This document shows, piece by piece, positions 25,909 through 32,728 of a DNA stretch of 64,000 bases. A program made the translations under genes and the position numbers. Origin of the DNA: Rhodanobacter sp. Soil772. Lineage in GTDB: Bacteria; Pseudomonadota; Gammaproteobacteria; Xanthomonadales; Rhodanobacteraceae. The stretch is taken from contig NZ_LMSK01000002.1 of the NCBI RefSeq assembly GCF_001428385.1, positions 216,704 through 280,703 on the forward strand, given 5' to 3'. Within the stretch, counting starts at the first letter, position 1. Every line of letters begins with the position of its first letter. The notes under the pieces were generated by a model that worked only from the letters and a program-made list of their open reading frames with translations, did no database searches and was not told the origin of the DNA.

Positions 25909-26639
25909 GAGCGGGGCGAACCTCCAGCGTTGACGGCGGCCGTCTGCGGCCAGCGCACGGCGAATCCATTGGTGTAGCGAAGATCGGCGTAGGCGAAGCC
26001 GTCGGTATGGCCGGCGATCAGCTGCGGGTAGACGTCGAGGAAGCGACGCAGCCGGCGCCCGGCGTACTCGCGGTCGCCGATCACGATCTGCGCGCCGTCC
26101 GCCATGCTCACGCTCCAGCTGCCGCGGTCGGTCAGCGCCACACCGGTGATCTGCAGCTGGGTGCCGGCGAATGCCTTGCGGGTTTCCGCATAGAAGCTGA
26201 CCACTTCGGCCAGCCGCGCATCCGGGCCATGCAGGCTCGGCAGCCCGCCGGCGCCGTCCATGCCCGGCGCATCGAACACCAGGCCTTGACGGCTGATCAG
26301 CTGCTTGTCGTTCCAGCGGGCGAACGGCTGACGCTCGTAGATGCGCAACTGCAAGGTGGCCGGCCAGCGCTTGCGCGCCTCGACCGATTCCACCCACGGC
26401 AGCGCGGCGACGGCCTTCTGTACCGCGTCCAGATCCAGCGCGAAGAAACCCTTGCCCAAGCGCGGCCGCACCGCGGCGCGGATGTCGTCCGCGCTGACAT
26501 GCTTGAACTCGGCCTGCACCGTCAGCTGGGTCACCGGCCAGCGCCCGGCCGCAAACCACCCGCGCAGCACGCCGACGATCGGCAGCGCGACCAGCGCGAT
26601 GGCGAGGCACCAGGCGACGAGGCGGACGGTTCCTTTCAC
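25905..26639 (-). CDS. ftsQ: Cell-division protein FtsQ
   Basis: Bitopic divisome protein linking FtsBL with the early ring. It has 244 aa: one N-terminal membrane helix (about 5-28), a POTRA domain (about 36-105, starting [18 protein letters not shown], shown by [10 protein letters not shown]), and an FtsQ/DivIB beta domain. The start is GTG at 26639, overlapping the ddl stop (GTGA). Its Shine-Dalgarno AAGGAGG lies 6-7 bp upstream, inside the flank of the GATTCGG repeat element at the end of ddl. Confidence 0.95.
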
Positions 26640-27667
26640 TGGGCGCCTCCTTTGGAGTCGCGGGATTCGGGATTCGGGATTCGGGATTCGGTGAAGCCGG
26701 TCCGCGCGGTTACCGATTCCCGAGCGAAGCTCGTCTCAAGCACGCGCCAGCACAGTTCCTGGTAATCGATGCCGGCGACTTTGGCCGCCTTCGGTACCAG
26801 CGAGTGCGAGGTCATGCCCGGCGCGGTGTTCACTTCCAGCAGCCAGTTGCGGCCGGCGCGGTCGCGCATCACGTCGACGCGGCCCCAGCCTTGGCAACCC
26901 AGTGCATCGAACGCGGCGAGCGCCAGTGCGCGCAGCTCCGCTTCGGCGTCGCCTTCAAGGCCGGGACACAGGTACAGCGTGTCCTCGGCGATGTACTTCG
27001 CGTTGTAGTCGTAGAACGCACCCTTCGGCACGATGTGGATGCTCGGCAACACCTGGCGGCCGAGGATGCCGACGGTCAGCTCGTCGCCCTCGATCAGGGT
27101 TTCCATCAGCAGGTCGCCCGGATACTTCGCGGCCAGCTCCACCGCCTGATCCAGCTGCGCTTCCTCGAACACGCGGGTGACGCCCACGCTGGAACCCTCG
27201 CAGGCCGGCTTCACGATCAACGGGAAGCCGATCTGTTTCGCCGCCGCATGCACATCGGCGCCGCGCGGCAAGGCCACGAACTTCGGCGTTGGCAGGCCGA
27301 GCGACTGCCACACGCGCTTCGAACGCGTCTTGTCCATCGACAACGCCGAGCCCAGCACACCCGAGCCGGTGTAAGGCACCTTGAGCGCCTCCAGCGCACC
27401 TTGCAGCACGCCGTCCTCGCCACCGCCATGCTGGCCGTGCAGGATGTTGAACACGCGCGCGAAATGGTCGGTGCGCAACGCGTCGAGCAGCGCCGGGATG
27501 CCGTCGACCGCATGCGCGTCCACGCCGCGCGCCTTGAGCGCCTCCAGCACGTTGCGGCCGGAATCCAGCGAGACTTCACGCTCGGCCGAGCTGCCGCCCA
27601 TCGCCACGGCGACGCGACCGAACTGGGCAGGATCGCTGATTTTGTCCACGGTCACCTTCACGCTCAC
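26636..27667 (-). CDS. ddl: D-alanine--D-alanine ligase Ddl (B type)
   Basis: ATP-grasp ligase making the D-Ala-D-Ala dipeptide for MurF. It has 343 aa, longer than the roughly 306 of E. coli Ddl[15 protein letters not shown] (about 20-33), the EGSSVGVT lid loop and the [15 protein letters not shown] metal/substrate segment are all intact. The extra length includes a C-terminal tail of about 28 residues after LETSFA ([15 protein letters not shown] at its end) that is translated from repeat copy A. The start is GTG at 27667, overlapping the murC stop (GTGA); an ATG-based start is not available nearby. Confidence 0.95.
26641..26725. repeat. GATTCGG palindromic element, copy A (ddl/ftsQ)
   Basis: Four tandem 7-bp GGGATTC units (26662-26689) face a short inverted arm (CCGATTCCCG, 26713-26722) across a GC-rich loop. 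The flank at 26644-26656 reads, on the minus strand, CTCCAAAGGAGG, the same motif that flanks copy C. The element encodes the last residues of Ddl and places a Shine-Dalgarno before ftsQ. Confidence 0.8.
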
Positions 27668-29103
27668 TTGTTCGTCCTCAGGTTGCCGAGCTGGGCCAGC
27701 TCGACCGCTGCCGCGCCGATGTCGCCGGCACCCAGCAGCAGCAGCAGGTCACCATCGCGCAGCAGCGCCGGCAGGGTTTCCTTCAGCTCGCGCGGATGCT
27801 CGACCAGCACCGGGTCGACCTTGCCGCGCGCGCGCACCGCACGCGCCAGCGCGCGGCCGTCGGCACCGGCGATCGGCGCCTCGCCGGCCGGGTAGACGTC
27901 GGTCAGCACCAGCACGTCGACCTCGGCCAGCACGTTGGCGAAGTCGTCCAGCAGGTCGCGCGTGCGGCTGTAGCGGTGCGGCTGGAAACCGACCACCAGG
28001 CGGCGCTCGGGCCAGCCACCGCGGGCGGCGGCGAACACCGCGGCCAGCTCGCGCGGGTGATGGCCGTAGTCGTCGACCAGCAGCACGTGGCCCTGGTCCA
28101 GCGCGATCTCGCCGCGCCGGTGGAAGCGCCGACCGACGCCCTGGAAGTTCTCCAGCGCACGCGCCAGCGCCGCCGCCTCCACGCCCAGCTGCCAGCCGAT
28201 CGCAGACGCGGCCAGCGCGTTCAGCACGTTGTGCCGGCCCGGCAGGTTGAGCTTCACCGGCAGCGCTTCGTCGCGACCGGGCAGCAGCAGGTCGAAGTGC
28301 ATCTCAAAACCATGCTGGCTCACGTTCAACGCGCGCACGTCGGCGTCCGCGGTGTCGATGCCGTAGGTCATCACGCGGCGCGTGGTGGACTTCGCCAGCA
28401 CGGCCACTTCGGGGTCGTCCACGCACAGCACGGCCAGGCCGTAGAACGGCAGCCGGTGCAGGAAATCGGCGAACGCCTTCTTCACCTCGGCAAAATCGCC
28501 GTGGTAGTTCTCCAGGTGATCGGCGTCGATGTTGGTGACCGCGGCGATCACCGGCGACAGCAGCAGGAACGAGCCGTCGGATTCGTCGGCTTCCGCGACC
28601 AGGTACTGGCCGGTGCCGAGTCGCGCGTTCGCGCCAGCCGCATTGAGCTGACCGCCAATCACGAAGGTCGGGTCGTAGCCGGCCTCGGCCAGCACGCTGG
28701 CGGTGAGGCTGGTGGTGGTGGTCTTGCCGTGGGTGCCGGCGATCGCCACGCCGCGGCGGAAGCGCATCAGCTCGCCCAGCATCTCCGCACGCGGGATCAC
28801 CGGGATGCGCGCCGCGCGGGCGGCGACCAGTTCCACGTTGTCCTGCTTGATCGCGCTGGAGGTCACCACCACGTCGGCGTCACCGATGTTTTCCGCGGCG
28901 TGCCCGACGTGCACGACGATGCCCAGCTGCTGCAGCCGCTGCGCGGTCGGCGAATGCGCGCGGTCGGAACCGGACACCGCGTAGCCGAGGTTGTGCAGCA
29001 CCTCGGCGATGCCGCTCATGCCGACGCCGCCGATGCCGATGAAATGCACCCGGCGGAACGTGCTCATCGGGTCTTCGTGTGCATGCAACCTGCGCGGCGT
29101 CAT
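27664..29103 (-). CDS. murC: UDP-N-acetylmuramate--L-alanine ligase MurC
   Basis: Adds L-Ala to UDP-MurNAc. It has 479 aa from the ATG at 29103, which overlaps the murG stop (ATGA); an internal ATG at 29067 would remove 12 residues. [13 protein letters not shown] is the N-terminal Rossmann motif, [11 protein letters not shown] the Mur-ligase P-loop, and [10 protein letters not shown] plus [13 protein letters not shown] the central-domain motifs. [10 protein letters not shown] lies in the C-terminal domain. I prefer the coupled upstream start because xanthomonad MurC proteins commonly carry a short N-terminal extension. Confidence 0.95.
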
Positions 29104-30257
29104 GCGGCCACCTCCAGGCAAGCGCGCGCGATGACCTGCGCCGCGTCGGGTTTGGCCAGCGTGCGCGCGGCTTCGGCCATCGCCAGCAGGCGGCCGCGAT
29201 CGCCCAGCAGCGACTCCAGTCGCTGCGCCAGAATCTGTACGTCCAGCTCGTTCTCCTGCATCAGTTCGGCGGCTCCGGCCGCCATCAGTACTTCGGCATT
29301 GCGCGTCTGGTGGTCGTCCACCGCGTGCGGGAACGGCACCAGCACGGCACCCAGCCCGGCCGCAGCCAGTTCGGCCAAGGTCAGCGCGCCGGCGCGGCAG
29401 ACGGCCAGGTCGGCCCAGCCATAGGTGCCGGCCATGTCGTCGATGAACGCGACCACCTGCGCCTCGACGCCGGCCTTCGCATACGCCGCACGCGCTTCGT
29501 CGAGACCGCGGTTGCCGCACTGGTGCAGCACCTCGGGACGCTGCGCCGGGGTCAGTTGCGCCAGCGCCTGCGGCAGCGCCAGGTTCAGCGCACGGGCGCC
29601 GAGACTGCCGCCCAGCACCAGCAGGCGCGGCTTGCCATCGCGCCCGGCCATGCGCTCGGCCGGCGGCGGCAGCACGGCGATCGCCTCGCGCACCGGGTTG
29701 CCGACCCACTCGGCCCGCGGCAAGGCATCTGCGAAACCGGCCAGCACGCGCTTCGCCAGTCCGGCCAGCTTGCGGTTGGTAAACCCGGCCACGCGGTTCT
29801 GCTCGTGCACCAGCAGCGGCCTGCGCAATAGCCATGCGGCGAGGCCGCCAGGGCCGGCCACGTAGCCGCCCATCGACAACACGCTGCGCGGCTGCACCTG
29901 GCGCAGCACGGCCAGCGACGCGAACAGCGCGCGCAGCAACATCAGCGGCGCCAGCAGCCGGGTCCTGATGCCCTTGCCGCGCAGGCCGCCGACCGCCACC
30001 GTGTGCAGCTCGATCCGCTGCGCCGGCACCACCGTCGTTTCCATCCCGCCGACCGCGCCCAGCCACACCACCGGCACGCCTTGCGCGCGCAAGCACTCGG
30101 CCACCGCCAGTCCGGGGAAGATGTGGCCGCCAGTGCCGCCGGCCATGATCAATACGGGACGGGATTCGGGAATGGAGAATCGGGAATCGGCAAAAGCAGA
30201 GCGCGACCCGCTCTGGCCATTCCCGATTCCCGATTCCCGATTCCCGATGGTCATCAT
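29100..30257 (-). CDS. murG: Lipid II synthase MurG with repeat-encoded N-terminus
   Basis: Glycosyltransferase adding GlcNAc to lipid I on the inner face of the cytoplasmic membrane. It has 385 aa. The core begins VLIMAGGTGGHIFPG, whose G-rich loop binds lipid I. SMGGYVAGPGG, LVLGGSLGARALN and the AVDDHQTRNAE donor site follow. Before the core lie 34 residues (MMTIGNRESGIGNG onward), about 26 more than in E. coli, translated from repeat copy B. The ATG at 30257 overlaps the ftsW stop (ATGA). Starting later would delete the first beta strand, so the repeat-encoded segment seems to be part of the protein. Confidence 0.93.
   Translation of the reverse strand: MMTIGNRESGIGNGQSGSRSAFADSRFSIPESRPVLIMAGGTGGHIFPGLAVAECLRAQGVPVVWLGAVGGMETTVVPAQRIELHTVAVGGLRGKGIRTRLLAPLMLLRALFASLAVLRQVQPRSVLSMGGYVAGPGGLAAWLLRRPLLVHEQNRVAGFTNRKLAGLAKRVLAGFADALPRAEWVGNPVREAIAVLPPPAERMAGRDGKPRLLVLGGSLGARALNLALPQALAQLTPAQRPEVLHQCGNRGLDEARAAYAKAGVEAQVVAFIDDMAGTYGWADLAVCRAGALTLAELAAAGLGAVLVPFPHAVDDHQTRNAEVLMAAGAAELMQENELDVQILAQRLESLLGDRGRLLAMAEAARTLAKPDAAQVIARACLEVAA
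30161..30250. repeat. GATTCGG palindromic element, copy B (murG start)
   Basis: Arms at 30161-30190 and 30217-30250 are built of 7-bp GATTCGG/GATTCCC units and pair with each other. The loop contains its own AGAGCG/CGCTCT hairpin. The whole element is translated as MurG residues about 3-33. Confidence 0.8.
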
Positions 30258-31489
30258 GCGGCCACCGCCTCGCGCGGCTTCGCCGCGACATTCGCATCGG
30301 CCGCGGCCACCGCCGCCGGCATCCGCGTGGCCATCTGCCGCGCGTCCAGCGCGCGGTTGATCTCGTAGGTGGCGCGCAGCAAGACGCCGGCCATCGCGCA
30401 GGTCAGCACCATCGACGAGCCGCCGTAGCTGATCAGCGGCAGGGTCAGTCCCTTGGTCGGCAGCGCGCCCAAGTTCACGCCGACCGACACGAACGCCTGC
30501 ATCGCCAGCATCAGCGAGACGCCGAACGCGACGTAACCGGCAAAGCGCTGGCCCACCTCGACGCCCTTCAGGCCCAGGTACAGGCCGCGCCCTACCGCCA
30601 GTCCGAACAGGCCGATCACCAGCAGCACGCCGGCCAGGCCCAGTTCCTCGCCGATTACCGCGAAGATGAAGTCGGTATGCGCCTCCGGCAGATAGGACAG
30701 CTTCAGCACGCTGGAGCCCAGCCCCACCCCGGTCCACTCGCCGCGGCCGATCGCCATCAGCGACTGGGTCAGCTGGAAGCCGTCGTTGAACGGATCCTTC
30801 CACGGGTCCATGAACGAGGTCAGCCGCTTCATGCGGTAGCTCTCGCCGGTCGCCGCCACGTACAGCAGTGGCATCAGCGGCAAGCCCATCAGGAACAGGA
30901 AGATCGGCCGCGCGCCGCCCAGCCAGACCATGGCGATGGTCACCGCGATCACCAGCGTGGCCGAGCCGAAGTCCGGCTGCGCCAGCAGCAGCAGCACGAT
31001 CATGCCGGCGACCAGCACCGGCTTGAACAGGCCCAGGAACTTCGTCTCCACGTTCTCGCGATGACGCACCAGGTAACTGGCGACGTAGATCACCAGGATG
31101 AGTTTTACCGCCTCGACCGGCTGGAACGTGGTGACCAGCAGGTTCAGCCAGCGCCGCGCGCCGTTGATGCGCAGGCCGAGGTGCGGCACGAACACCGCCA
31201 GCAGCATCAGGAACGCCAGCGCCAGCAGCGGGAACGCATATTTTTCCAGCAGCTTCAGCTCGGTGCGCATCGCCATGCCGGCCGCGAACAGACCCAGGCC
31301 GAGGAACAGCAGGTGCTTCTTCAGGAAGTAGAACGCGCCGATGTGCTGGCTGTCCGCCACCGCGATCGAGCTCGACGTCACCATCACCACGCCCACGCTG
31401 GCCAGCCCGACCAGTGCGACCAGCAGCCACAGGTCGAAGCTGCCGCGCGGTCCGCTGCGGCGTTTGGCTTGGGTGGTGGCGTCAAACAT
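30254..31489 (-). CDS. ftsW: Septal SEDS glycosyltransferase FtsW
   Basis: Polymerises lipid II at the septum together with FtsI. It has 411 aa with about ten membrane helices. Family signatures include INGARRWLNL, QPVEAVKL, the catalytic-region LAQPDFGSA, and the C-terminal LPLISYGGSS loop. The ATG at 31489 has AGGAGG at good spacing. A GTG six bases further upstream overlaps that ribosome site and is rejected. It is separated from mraY by repeat copy C, the only break in the overlapping chain from rsmH to ftsA. Confidence 0.96.
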   Translation of the reverse strand: MFDATTQAKRRSGPRGSFDLWLLVALVGLASVGVVMVTSSSIAVADSQHIGAFYFLKKHLLFLGLGLFAAGMAMRTELKLLEKYAFPLLALAFLMLLAVFVPHLGLRINGARRWLNLLVTTFQPVEAVKLILVIYVASYLVRHRENVETKFLGLFKPVLVAGMIVLLLLAQPDFGSATLVIAVTIAMVWLGGARPIFLFLMGLPLMPLLYVAATGESYRMKRLTSFMDPWKDPFNDGFQLTQSLMAIGRGEWTGVGLGSSVLKLSYLPEAHTDFIFAVIGEELGLAGVLLVIGLFGLAVGRGLYLGLKGVEVGQRFAGYVAFGVSLMLAMQAFVSVGVNLGALPTKGLTLPLISYGGSSMVLTCAMAGVLLRATYEINRALDARQMATRMPAAVAAADANVAAKPREAVAA

Positions 31490-31508
31490 GGGCACCTCCT
31501 TTGGAGGC

Positions 31509-31615
31509 GCGGGATTCGGGATTTGGAATTCGGGATTCGGAAAGACGCGCGCGCCGCAGCGCTGCGGATGTGCGTGCGCTCTTGCGAATCCCGAATCCCG
31601 AATCCCAAATCCCGG
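31509..31615. repeat. GATTCGG palindromic element, copy C (ftsW/mraY)
   Basis: Arms at 31510-31540 and 31586-31615 are inverted copies built from 7-bp GATTCGG units. The loop carries CCGCAGCGCTGCGG. The minus-strand flank toward ftsW reads CTCCAAAGGAGG and provides the ftsW ribosome site, as in copy A for ftsQ. Confidence 0.8.
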
Positions 31616-31624
31616 CTTTCATAG

Positions 31625-32728
31625 TCACCGCACCTTCAACGTGGCAAGACCGATCAGCACCAGCACCACGGAGATGATCCAGAAGCGCACGATCACGCGC
31701 GGCTCGGGCCAGCCCTTCAATTCGAAGTGGTGGTGGATCGGCGCCATCCGGAACACGCGCTTGCCGGTCAGCTTGAAGCTGGTCACCTGGATCATCACCG
31801 ACGCGGTTTCCATCACGAACACGCCGCCCATCACCAGCAGCACGATCTCCTGGCGCACGATCACCGCGACGCAACCGAGCGCCGCACCCATCGCCAGCGC
31901 GCCGACGTCGCCCATGAACACCTGCGCCGGATATGTGTTGAACCACAGGAAGCCCAACCCTGCGCCGGCCAGCGCGCCGGTGAAGATCGCCAGCTCGCCC
32001 GCGCCGGGAATCGAGGGGATGCCCAGGTATTCGGAAAACACCTTGTTGCCAGCCAGGTAGGCGAATACGCCAAGCGCGCCGGAAACCAGCACGGTCGGCA
32101 TGATCGCCAGGCCGTCCAGACCGTCGGTGAGGTTCACCGCGTTGGAGAAGCCCACGATCATGAAATAGGTGATCACCACGAAGAACAGTCCCAGCGGCAG
32201 CACCACGTGTTTGAACAGCGGCACGTACAGTGCGGTCTCCGCCACCGGCAGGCCGGCAGCCGCCGCATGCGGCGCGCTGTAGTACAGGAACAGCGCCGCG
32301 CCGAGGCCGAACACCGACTGCCAGAAATACTTCCAGCGGCTGGCCAGGCCGCGGCTGTCCTTCAGCACCAGCTTGCGGTAGTCGTCGTAGAAGCCGATCA
32401 CGCCGAAGCTCAGCAGCACCGCCAGCACCACCCACACGTAGCGGTTGTGCAGGTCGGCCCACAGCAAGGTGGCGACGGTGACCGAAAGCAGGATCATCAC
32501 GCCGCCCATGGTCGGCGTGCCGGCCTTGACCAGGTGCGTCTGCGGACCGTCGCTGCGCACCACCTGGCCGGCCTTCAGCGCGGCCAGCCGGTTGATCAGC
32601 CACGGCCCGCACAGCAGCGACAGCGACAGTGCGGTGAGCGCCGCCATGATCGTGCGGAAGGTGATGTACTGGAACAGATGCAGCGCGGTGAAATGCCGTG
32701 CCATCCAGTCGGCCAGTTCAAGCAGCAT
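31625..32728 (-). CDS. mraY: Phospho-MurNAc-pentapeptide transferase MraY
   Basis: Transfers phospho-MurNAc-pentapeptide to undecaprenyl phosphate, forming lipid I. It has 367 aa, about ten membrane helices. Motifs are GTPTMGG, the catalytic-region [32 protein letters not shown] and the [11 protein letters not shown] loop. The ATG at 32728 lies 11 bp inside the end of murF. A longer frame upstream (into murF) is not conserved. Confidence 0.96.

Follow-up and report, generated by a model that had tools for sequence, protein, structure and literature searches.

Heptamer repeats at gene junctions of a Rhodanobacter dcw operon are crossed by open reading frames

The elements at the dcw locus

The stretch analysed here (the window) comprises 64,000 nucleotides of Rhodanobacter sp. 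Soil772 (contig NZ_LMSK01000002.1, positions 216,704 to 280,703), and its minus strand carries a division and cell wall (dcw) operon region with mraY, ftsW, murG, murC, ddl, ftsQ and ftsA in this order; the genes are named from their proteins and order, with no annotation used. The host genome (3.57 Mb in five contigs) is Rhodanobacter-like, and MurG of the window is 89-97% identical to MurG of several named Rhodanobacter. Arrays of the heptamers GGGATTC or GGGAATC sit at three junctions of the operon, ddl/ftsQ (site 1), ftsW/murG (site 2) and mraY/ftsW (site 3), and this paper concerns these elements, the reading frames that cross them and the repeat family to which they belong.

The original prediction, made from the letters of the window, described heptamer palindromes at these three junctions. 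Three arrays are indeed present, each with at least two tandem units of the GGGNATC type, while the facing arms that had been assigned to all of them occur at sites 2 and 3 only. Site 1 has no real second arm, its only array being faced by one degenerate unit, and the unit of site 2 is GGGAATC instead of the GGGATTC supposed for all three. The claim that copies are lacking elsewhere in the window holds: at up to three mismatches, 13/13 matches of GGGATTCGGGATTCGG and 16/16 matches of GGGAATCGGGAATCGG fall within the three sites, and 100 shuffles gave about 0.5 matches on average and 4 at most. In folding predictions none of 200 shuffles was as good as site 2 or site 3, the stretch 31490-31625 around the latter reaching -83 kcal/mol (z -9.2); at site 1 (z -1.2), 29/200 shuffles were as good. 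Four G-tracts are present, and G-quadruplex formation is putative.

All three elements can be read through (Table 1). The tail of Ddl behind its conserved core has 29 residues here versus 4 in near relatives without the element, and its end overlaps the start of ftsQ as GTGA. MurG has 32 residues ahead of its conserved core versus 4 in such relatives; most of them are encoded by site 2, and the 45 nt preceding the core contain no in-frame start. At site 3 there is a mini open reading frame (mini-ORF) whose ATG begins 5 nt downstream of the first nucleotide of the mraY stop and whose stop begins 5 nt downstream of the first nucleotide of the ftsW ATG.

Table 1. Positions of the elements and associated features in the window
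Feature	Position	Strand	Remarks
Ddl tail past the conserved core	26636..26725	-	29 residues, reads through site 1
Shine-Dalgarno-like AAAGGAGG for ftsQ	26646..26653	-	just past the C-rich array; read from the sequence
Site 1 (ddl/ftsQ)	26661..26691	+	four exact GGGATTC units; C-rich on the coding (minus) strand
murG	29100..30257	-	start overlaps the ftsW stop as ATGA
Site 2 (ftsW/murG)	30160..30248		two facing GGGAATC arms, predicted hairpin -62.9 kcal/mol, z -6.8
Mini-ORF, 46 codons, through site 3	31482..31622	-	bridges mraY and ftsW
Small predicted hairpin with AAAGGAGG of ftsW	31492..31510	-	directly past the C-rich arm
Site 3 (mraY/ftsW)	31510..31614		two facing GGGATTC arms

In the segment 30254-32758 ftsW stands directly after mraY, and the ORF list holds no murD-like ORF between them (a murD search was not made).

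Open reading frames across the filled junctions

The dcw junctions were compared in 112 loci, which include 80 named loci (the best 80 of 186 relatives), the window and 40 loci from further genomes, minus 9 duplicates (L and G numbers are our labels for loci and genomes). The MurG extension contains one of the search peptides, and high repeat number was part of the reason for choosing the genomes of the 40 further loci; this set is biased, and therefore the fill frequencies in Table 2 should not be read as prevalences. What is said about junctions once they are filled does not suffer from this bias.

Table 2. Filled dcw junctions in the window's family and in other families
Junction	Window's family	Other families
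mraY/ftsW	17/90	0/20
ftsW/murG	12/91	2/20, both false
murG/murC	0/92	9/20
murC/ddl	4/92	0/20
ddl/ftsQ	16/91	12/20
ftsQ/ftsA	2/90	10/20

At all 84 dcw junctions that passed our automatic criterion, an open path crosses the junction and ends no more than 5 nt from the next start. Two of these, the ftsW/murG junctions of L171 and L180, are alanine-rich FtsW tails without heptamers and represent false positives; without them, 82/82 element-bearing junctions are crossed by an open frame. The 84 paths comprise 37 extensions of the upstream protein, 18 extensions of the downstream protein and 29 mini-ORFs, with the offset to the next start being +1 (ATGA or GTGA) in 60, +5 in 17, -2 in 5, -5 in one and -3 in one. 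As a control, the frame was shifted by deleting or inserting 1 or 2 nt midway through the element; 14 to 19 of the 84 junctions then passed, none of them at ftsW/murG.

In 65 cases the path lacks an evident coding need of the neighbouring protein core (17 mraY/ftsW junctions, 28 ddl/ftsQ junctions, 8 MurG and 12 FtsQ C-terminal extensions). A stop codon placed 5 nt past the first base of the ftsW ATG is present at 17/17 filled mraY/ftsW junctions versus 1/93 element-free ones, and it is written in three spellings, ATGTTTGA, ATGCTTGA or ATGCTTAA. At ddl/ftsQ both C-terminal extensions and mini-ORFs are found; in L161 the extension of Ddl overlaps a second ORF that continues to ftsQ.

Of 582 element-free dcw junctions, 525 join genes that overlap or abut with no more than 5 nt between them, and therefore coupling exists there to be lost. 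The idea that the elements avoid junctions without overlap was dropped because all six types of dcw junction usually overlap, those unfilled in the window's family included.

The original prediction had also stressed that the 7-bp unit stays open in all frames. The unit is stop-free, but this is unremarkable, since tandem arrays of 50% of all heptamers have no stop in any of the six frames. A stop-free heptamer as a special adaptation was rejected for the same reason and since the GGGAATA and GTGAACA units do not have this property.

Several loci deserve separate mention. In two Dyella loci (L061 and L086) the mraY/ftsW element uses a GTGAACA-like unit with few G-runs yet retains both the facing arms and the mini-ORF, which argues against quadruplex formation as the sole constraint. 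Decayed copies exist, for example a short remnant at ftsW/murG of L054. In L094 and L109 about 6.2-6.4 kb separates murC from ddl, resembling an insertion into the dcw operon, and the murC/ddl junction of L063 (325 nt, without heptamers, with inverted ends by eye) perhaps contains another small palindromic element.

The repeat family in this genome and in relatives

Genome-wide, 69 exact copies of GGGATTCGGGATTC were found versus 0 for a reversed control, and 233 matches of GGGANTCGGGANTC at up to one mismatch versus 4. In its repeat distribution the window is atypical for this genome. Starting from the first 100 places of GGGANTCGGGANTC, all exact, we recovered at least 54 sites from the fetched stretches and the window, a number that is a lower bound because 100 of the 233 places were followed. 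According to genes called by our own codon-usage gene caller, 40 of these sites lie between co-directional, 9 between convergent and 2 between divergent genes, with 3/54 inside predicted genes; the element-free adjacent gene pairs of the same stretches, obtained by subtraction, number about 107, 7 and 24, respectively. This agrees with the proposal of a dispersed family biased towards gene junctions. The preference for the dcw operon that had been added to it fails, as 51/54 sites in the fetched part of the genome lie elsewhere. The original prediction is partly confirmed on the whole: its observation was mostly right, its operon-specific reading was wrong, and the family was already known as the GGGNATC heptamer (Rehm 2015, PMC4692102).

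Outside dcw, the usual copy occupies the spacer directly behind a stop codon, 28/37 co-directional sites beginning no more than 20 nt past the upstream stop or ahead of it. Arrays of four units prevail (53/86), within a range of 2 to 12. In two-arm copies the G-rich arm comes first (32/32), and their consensus is ..GCC-(GGGATTC)n-G-N-AAAAGC-loop-GCTTTT-N-C-(GAATCCC)n-GGC.. The loops, described earlier as unrelated, are not wholly so: in the 32 two-arm copies GNAAAAGC is preferred after the arm on both strands. Both arms of one copy tend toward the same unit type (4/1/0/27, p 0.00014). The idea that the element carries a common Shine-Dalgarno hairpin along with it is not supported, as CCTCCNNNGGAGG has a single occurrence in the stretches fetched from this genome.

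In an order-wide sample, GGGANTCGGGANTC was found at least once in 83/200 genomes, the highest count in any of them being 371 matches. Within the genus the counts range from 0 to 108 across 11 genomes, with 100 in the window's genome, 9 in its relative G164 and 12 in G106, and in a class-wide sample of 276 the genomes outside the order reach at most 10. Matches of a reversed control, CTNAGGGCTNAGGG, were numerous in some genomes of the order-wide sample (188+228 in G037, 11+28 in G024, 16+20 in G101) and in G336 of the class-wide one (16+14); therefore relatives probably harbour further families of G-rich heptamers.

Turnover among relatives

A tree was built from the ftsW, murG and murC cores of 87 loci, omitting 20 loci of other families, L167-L170 of the window's own family and one incomplete locus. 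Among these loci the element fills mraY/ftsW in 17, ftsW/murG in 12 and ddl/ftsQ in 15, so the same junctions are far from being occupied in all relatives, an outcome that would have counted against the original prediction. In R. thiooxydans LCS2 all three are filled. At least 14, 9 and 11 changes of presence are required on the tree at these junctions, respectively, in counts that are blind to gain versus loss. Gene identity with G164, the nearest relative of the window genome, is 94-96.5%, and none of the three dcw junctions is filled there.

For comparison outside dcw, 22 of 30 two-arm sites elsewhere in the genome were tried. With a site called "empty" when it had fewer than three units and weak periodicity, the element is missing at 16/22 sites in G164 and at 12/21 in G106; of the six filled sites in G164 one (L138) is doubtful, and the empty site L125 has possible remnants. 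As regards a possible miniature inverted-repeat transposable element (MITE), facing arms occur at two of the three dcw sites, and by eye alignments with empty sites displayed changed flanks and no clean target-site duplication.

The filled sites differ in their units as well. At nine sites filled in both genomes, T and A at the fifth unit base stand at 52:6 here versus 7:29 in G106. Unit make-up is more similar across the dcw junctions within a genome (0.43) than at the same junction across genomes (0.27), with a permutation p of 0.0005 that is the floor of 2000 shuffles and leaves relatedness uncontrolled. The length of the mraY/ftsW element also varies by lineage, the gap to ftsW ranging from 114 to 184 nt with the path still kept.

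Discussion

The anatomy of the elements, their patchy presence and the reading-frame rule with its controls are, at the level of nucleotide sequence, matters of observation. We suggest, with a probability of about 0.7, that they represent a fast-turning-over palindromic repeat which persists in translationally coupled operons only when it is translatable. The copies belong to a dispersed family that carries no transposase gene. In a typical copy the G-rich arm commonly holds four heptamers, and so does the complementary arm; between the two lies a variable loop, rich in GC and bordered by AAAAGC/GCTTTT. Some agent would copy the element, favouring the spot just behind stop codons, and the family would be gained, lost and replaced quickly. 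In dcw, where genes are normally joined by stop/start overlaps, copies that break the ribosome traffic would be removed, and only those leaving a continuous ribosome path would persist. Three solutions are seen repeatedly: the frame of the upstream protein extends through the element, that of the downstream protein begins ahead of the element and is lengthened accordingly, or a mini-ORF would take ribosomes from one stop to the next start. Where the repeat is readable straight through, the next gene would therefore still be translatable. The cost avoided in this way may be polarity, a break in coupling or a hairpin that covers the ribosome-binding site, and the rule is probably the outcome of selection, either in favour of translational coupling or against polarity or blockage by the hairpin. 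The peptides of the mini-ORF and of the extensions are presumably produced, and on present evidence the element would be a passenger with no positive role.

Several points weigh against this interpretation. The path criterion is post hoc: an earlier version passed 64/80 junctions and was rewritten after several of the 16 misses (L161, L177, L182 and L184) had been read by eye and its limits on start position were found to have hidden paths. The rewritten form was applied equally to its controls, and its slightly lower repeat threshold added four ftsW/murG junctions, including the false L171 and L180. The frameshift controls are permissive at two junctions, with 16/17 passing at mraY/ftsW, presumably as FtsW extensions, and 11/28 at ddl/ftsQ, each in two of the four shifts. 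The frame at ftsW/murG is partly forced, because translation of MurG is required, and the 82 cases are not 82 independent events, because the filled loci are related. Outside dcw a genome-wide coupling rule is unsupported: a path was found at 14/40 sites (the three dcw sites included) versus 7 and 7 in controls by a looser test, and at 7/37 co-directional sites of this genome outside dcw versus 4 and 4 by a stricter one; the family as a whole is therefore no coupling device. A half-swap folding test, in which the element's own arms did better than the mean swap in 14/17, 8/12 and 17/32 cases, lends weak support to matched arms. Finally, rapid turnover contrasts with Xanthomonas, where 83% of Xcc repeats are in the same context in Xac and repeat-bearing regions are more stable than controls (PMC4692102), versus 6/22 tried sites filled in G164.

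A possible, although doubtful, alternative is that each junction received one old insertion that was inherited and lost many times, the common phase resulting from inheritance and not from selection. The filled mraY/ftsW junctions across genera mostly share ATGTTTGA, which in four of them (three Rhodanobacter, one Frateuria) is directly preceded by GCGGAGCA(A/G)GCCC; close variants of the latter occur in other filled junctions, Dyella included, and an apparent 3' remnant lies at one G164 site. All this would fit common descent, but the gap to ftsW changes among lineages with the path nonetheless kept, and 14 changes fall on the tree. Moreover, element-free FtsW mostly starts with one or two extra residues, which simple deletion between the ATGs does not restore, and ddl/ftsQ demonstrates C-extension and mini-ORF solutions alike.

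The unit "dialects" (GGGATTC, GGGAATC, GGGACTC, GGGGAAC, GGGATAC, GTGAACA) invite a further proposal, which we consider unlikely as it stands: the repeats might be homogenised in trans, elements at fixed junctions being rewritten wholesale into the genome-specific unit by a copying process neither Y1- nor RVT_1-based, with selection in coupled operons admitting only translatable products. If true, this would add a new way in which bacteria maintain dispersed repeats.

It is less likely still that the element is a working regulator, whose RNA hairpin or G-quadruplex would block the next ribosome-binding site or end transcription unless upstream ribosomes pass, thereby setting the stoichiometry of neighbouring genes. 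The very stable predicted hairpins at two sites, the frame rule inside dcw, and, at sites 1 and 3, the AAAGGAGG that directly follows the C-rich arm (within its own small hairpin at site 3) are compatible with such a role, and Xac transcripts start or stop at quadruplex-capable repeats more than at controls (PMC4692102). However, most of the 87 tree loci lack the element at the same junctions, the nearest relatives, with about 93-97% identical genes, manage without it, and there is no path excess outside dcw. A consensus scan found no intrinsic-terminator-like site at the three elements, and the study on Xanthomonas, where the quadruplex forms in vitro, could identify no regulatory role (PMC4692102).

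Plain simple-sequence repeats (SSRs) that grow and shrink by polymerase slippage without moving between sites, their absence representing array collapse, are very unlikely. Rehm 2015 classed the repeats as SSRs and discussed slippage (PMC4692102), the number of units varies, and one G164 site (L144) displays an apparent near-precise deletion. Yet slippage alone gives no facing arms with matched unit types around a loop with preferred edges, nor can it explain 100 pattern matches here versus 9 in the nearest relative or the change of unit at the same sites.

A repetitive extragenic palindromic (REP) element moved by a Y1 transposase (REP-associated tyrosine transposase, RAYT), or a retro-element, would be palindromic, dispersed and located at gene ends as well, but is extremely improbable, since this genome has no match to Y1_Tnp (PF01797) or RVT_1 (PF00078) and the three other highest-count genomes of the genus have none to RVT_1. 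The latter is found in 5/7 genomes with at most 12 matches and does not follow copy number in the 11 genomes of the genus, for which reason a reverse transcriptase was rejected as the driver, as was a RAYT. Both families are largely refuted in this role, and another enzyme is possible. In G056 there are eighteen Y1_Tnp matches, many of equal score, which probably indicate a recent expansion of a Y1-type transposon.

Returning to the persistence of translatable copies, its significance is that the importance of the few-base overlaps by which bacterial operons such as dcw are packed is hard to judge without mutating essential genes. Here there are many natural insertions, and every surviving case examined retains a possible ribosome path, via three routes. 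If translation is confirmed, translational coupling in an essential operon could thereby be tested by comparing genomes, protein tails such as GNRESGIGN would be translated repeats in the cases seen here, and annotators would be warned about the ends of MurG, Ddl and FtsW. In addition, genome-specific units and turnover among close relatives open the copying mechanism of the family to comparison.

Comparison with known repeats

REP elements and bacterial interspersed mosaic elements (BIMEs) with RAYT are short dispersed palindromes behind genes. The elements described here are built of heptamer arrays instead of REP.

Rickettsia palindromic elements, of about 150 bp, often lie in frame inside unrelated genes (PMC10969869). 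Site 2 resembles them in being palindromic and in frame inside murG, whereas site 1 is in frame and not palindromic. They encode a conserved peptide, while the heptamers here are read in differing frames across junctions and lineages; the sites here are gene junctions at which the frame joins two genes. Intergenic heptamer arrays are also known from Beggiatoaceae, where a regulatory role was suggested (PMC4679880); their unit TAACTGA contains stop codons, unlike GGGATTC and GGGAATC.

The closest system is represented by the repeats of two Xanthomonas genomes, with 186 and 183 arrays, four units preferred, facing pairs in 70 and 75 cases, and a location mostly between aligned ORFs and close to stop codons (PMC4692102). 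The unit, the four-unit preference, the facing pairs, the position behind stops between aligned genes, the scarcity between divergent genes and the shift of length and sequence among related species are the same in both. Frames across the repeats are not treated in the sections of that article covered here, and its main text gave 0 occurrences each for "translational coupling", "Shine" and "murG". Our literature search on translated heptamer repeats, with most subscription journals outside its coverage, returned nothing beyond PMC4692102, and no earlier report of the translatable state inside dcw or of genome-specific turnover was found in the literature searched. In comparison with the Xanthomonas repeats as described in those sections, the new features are Rhodanobacteraceae and other families as hosts, the preferred loop edges, the lineage-specific units, the presence or absence at the same junctions in 112 loci, and the open frames that run through the element.

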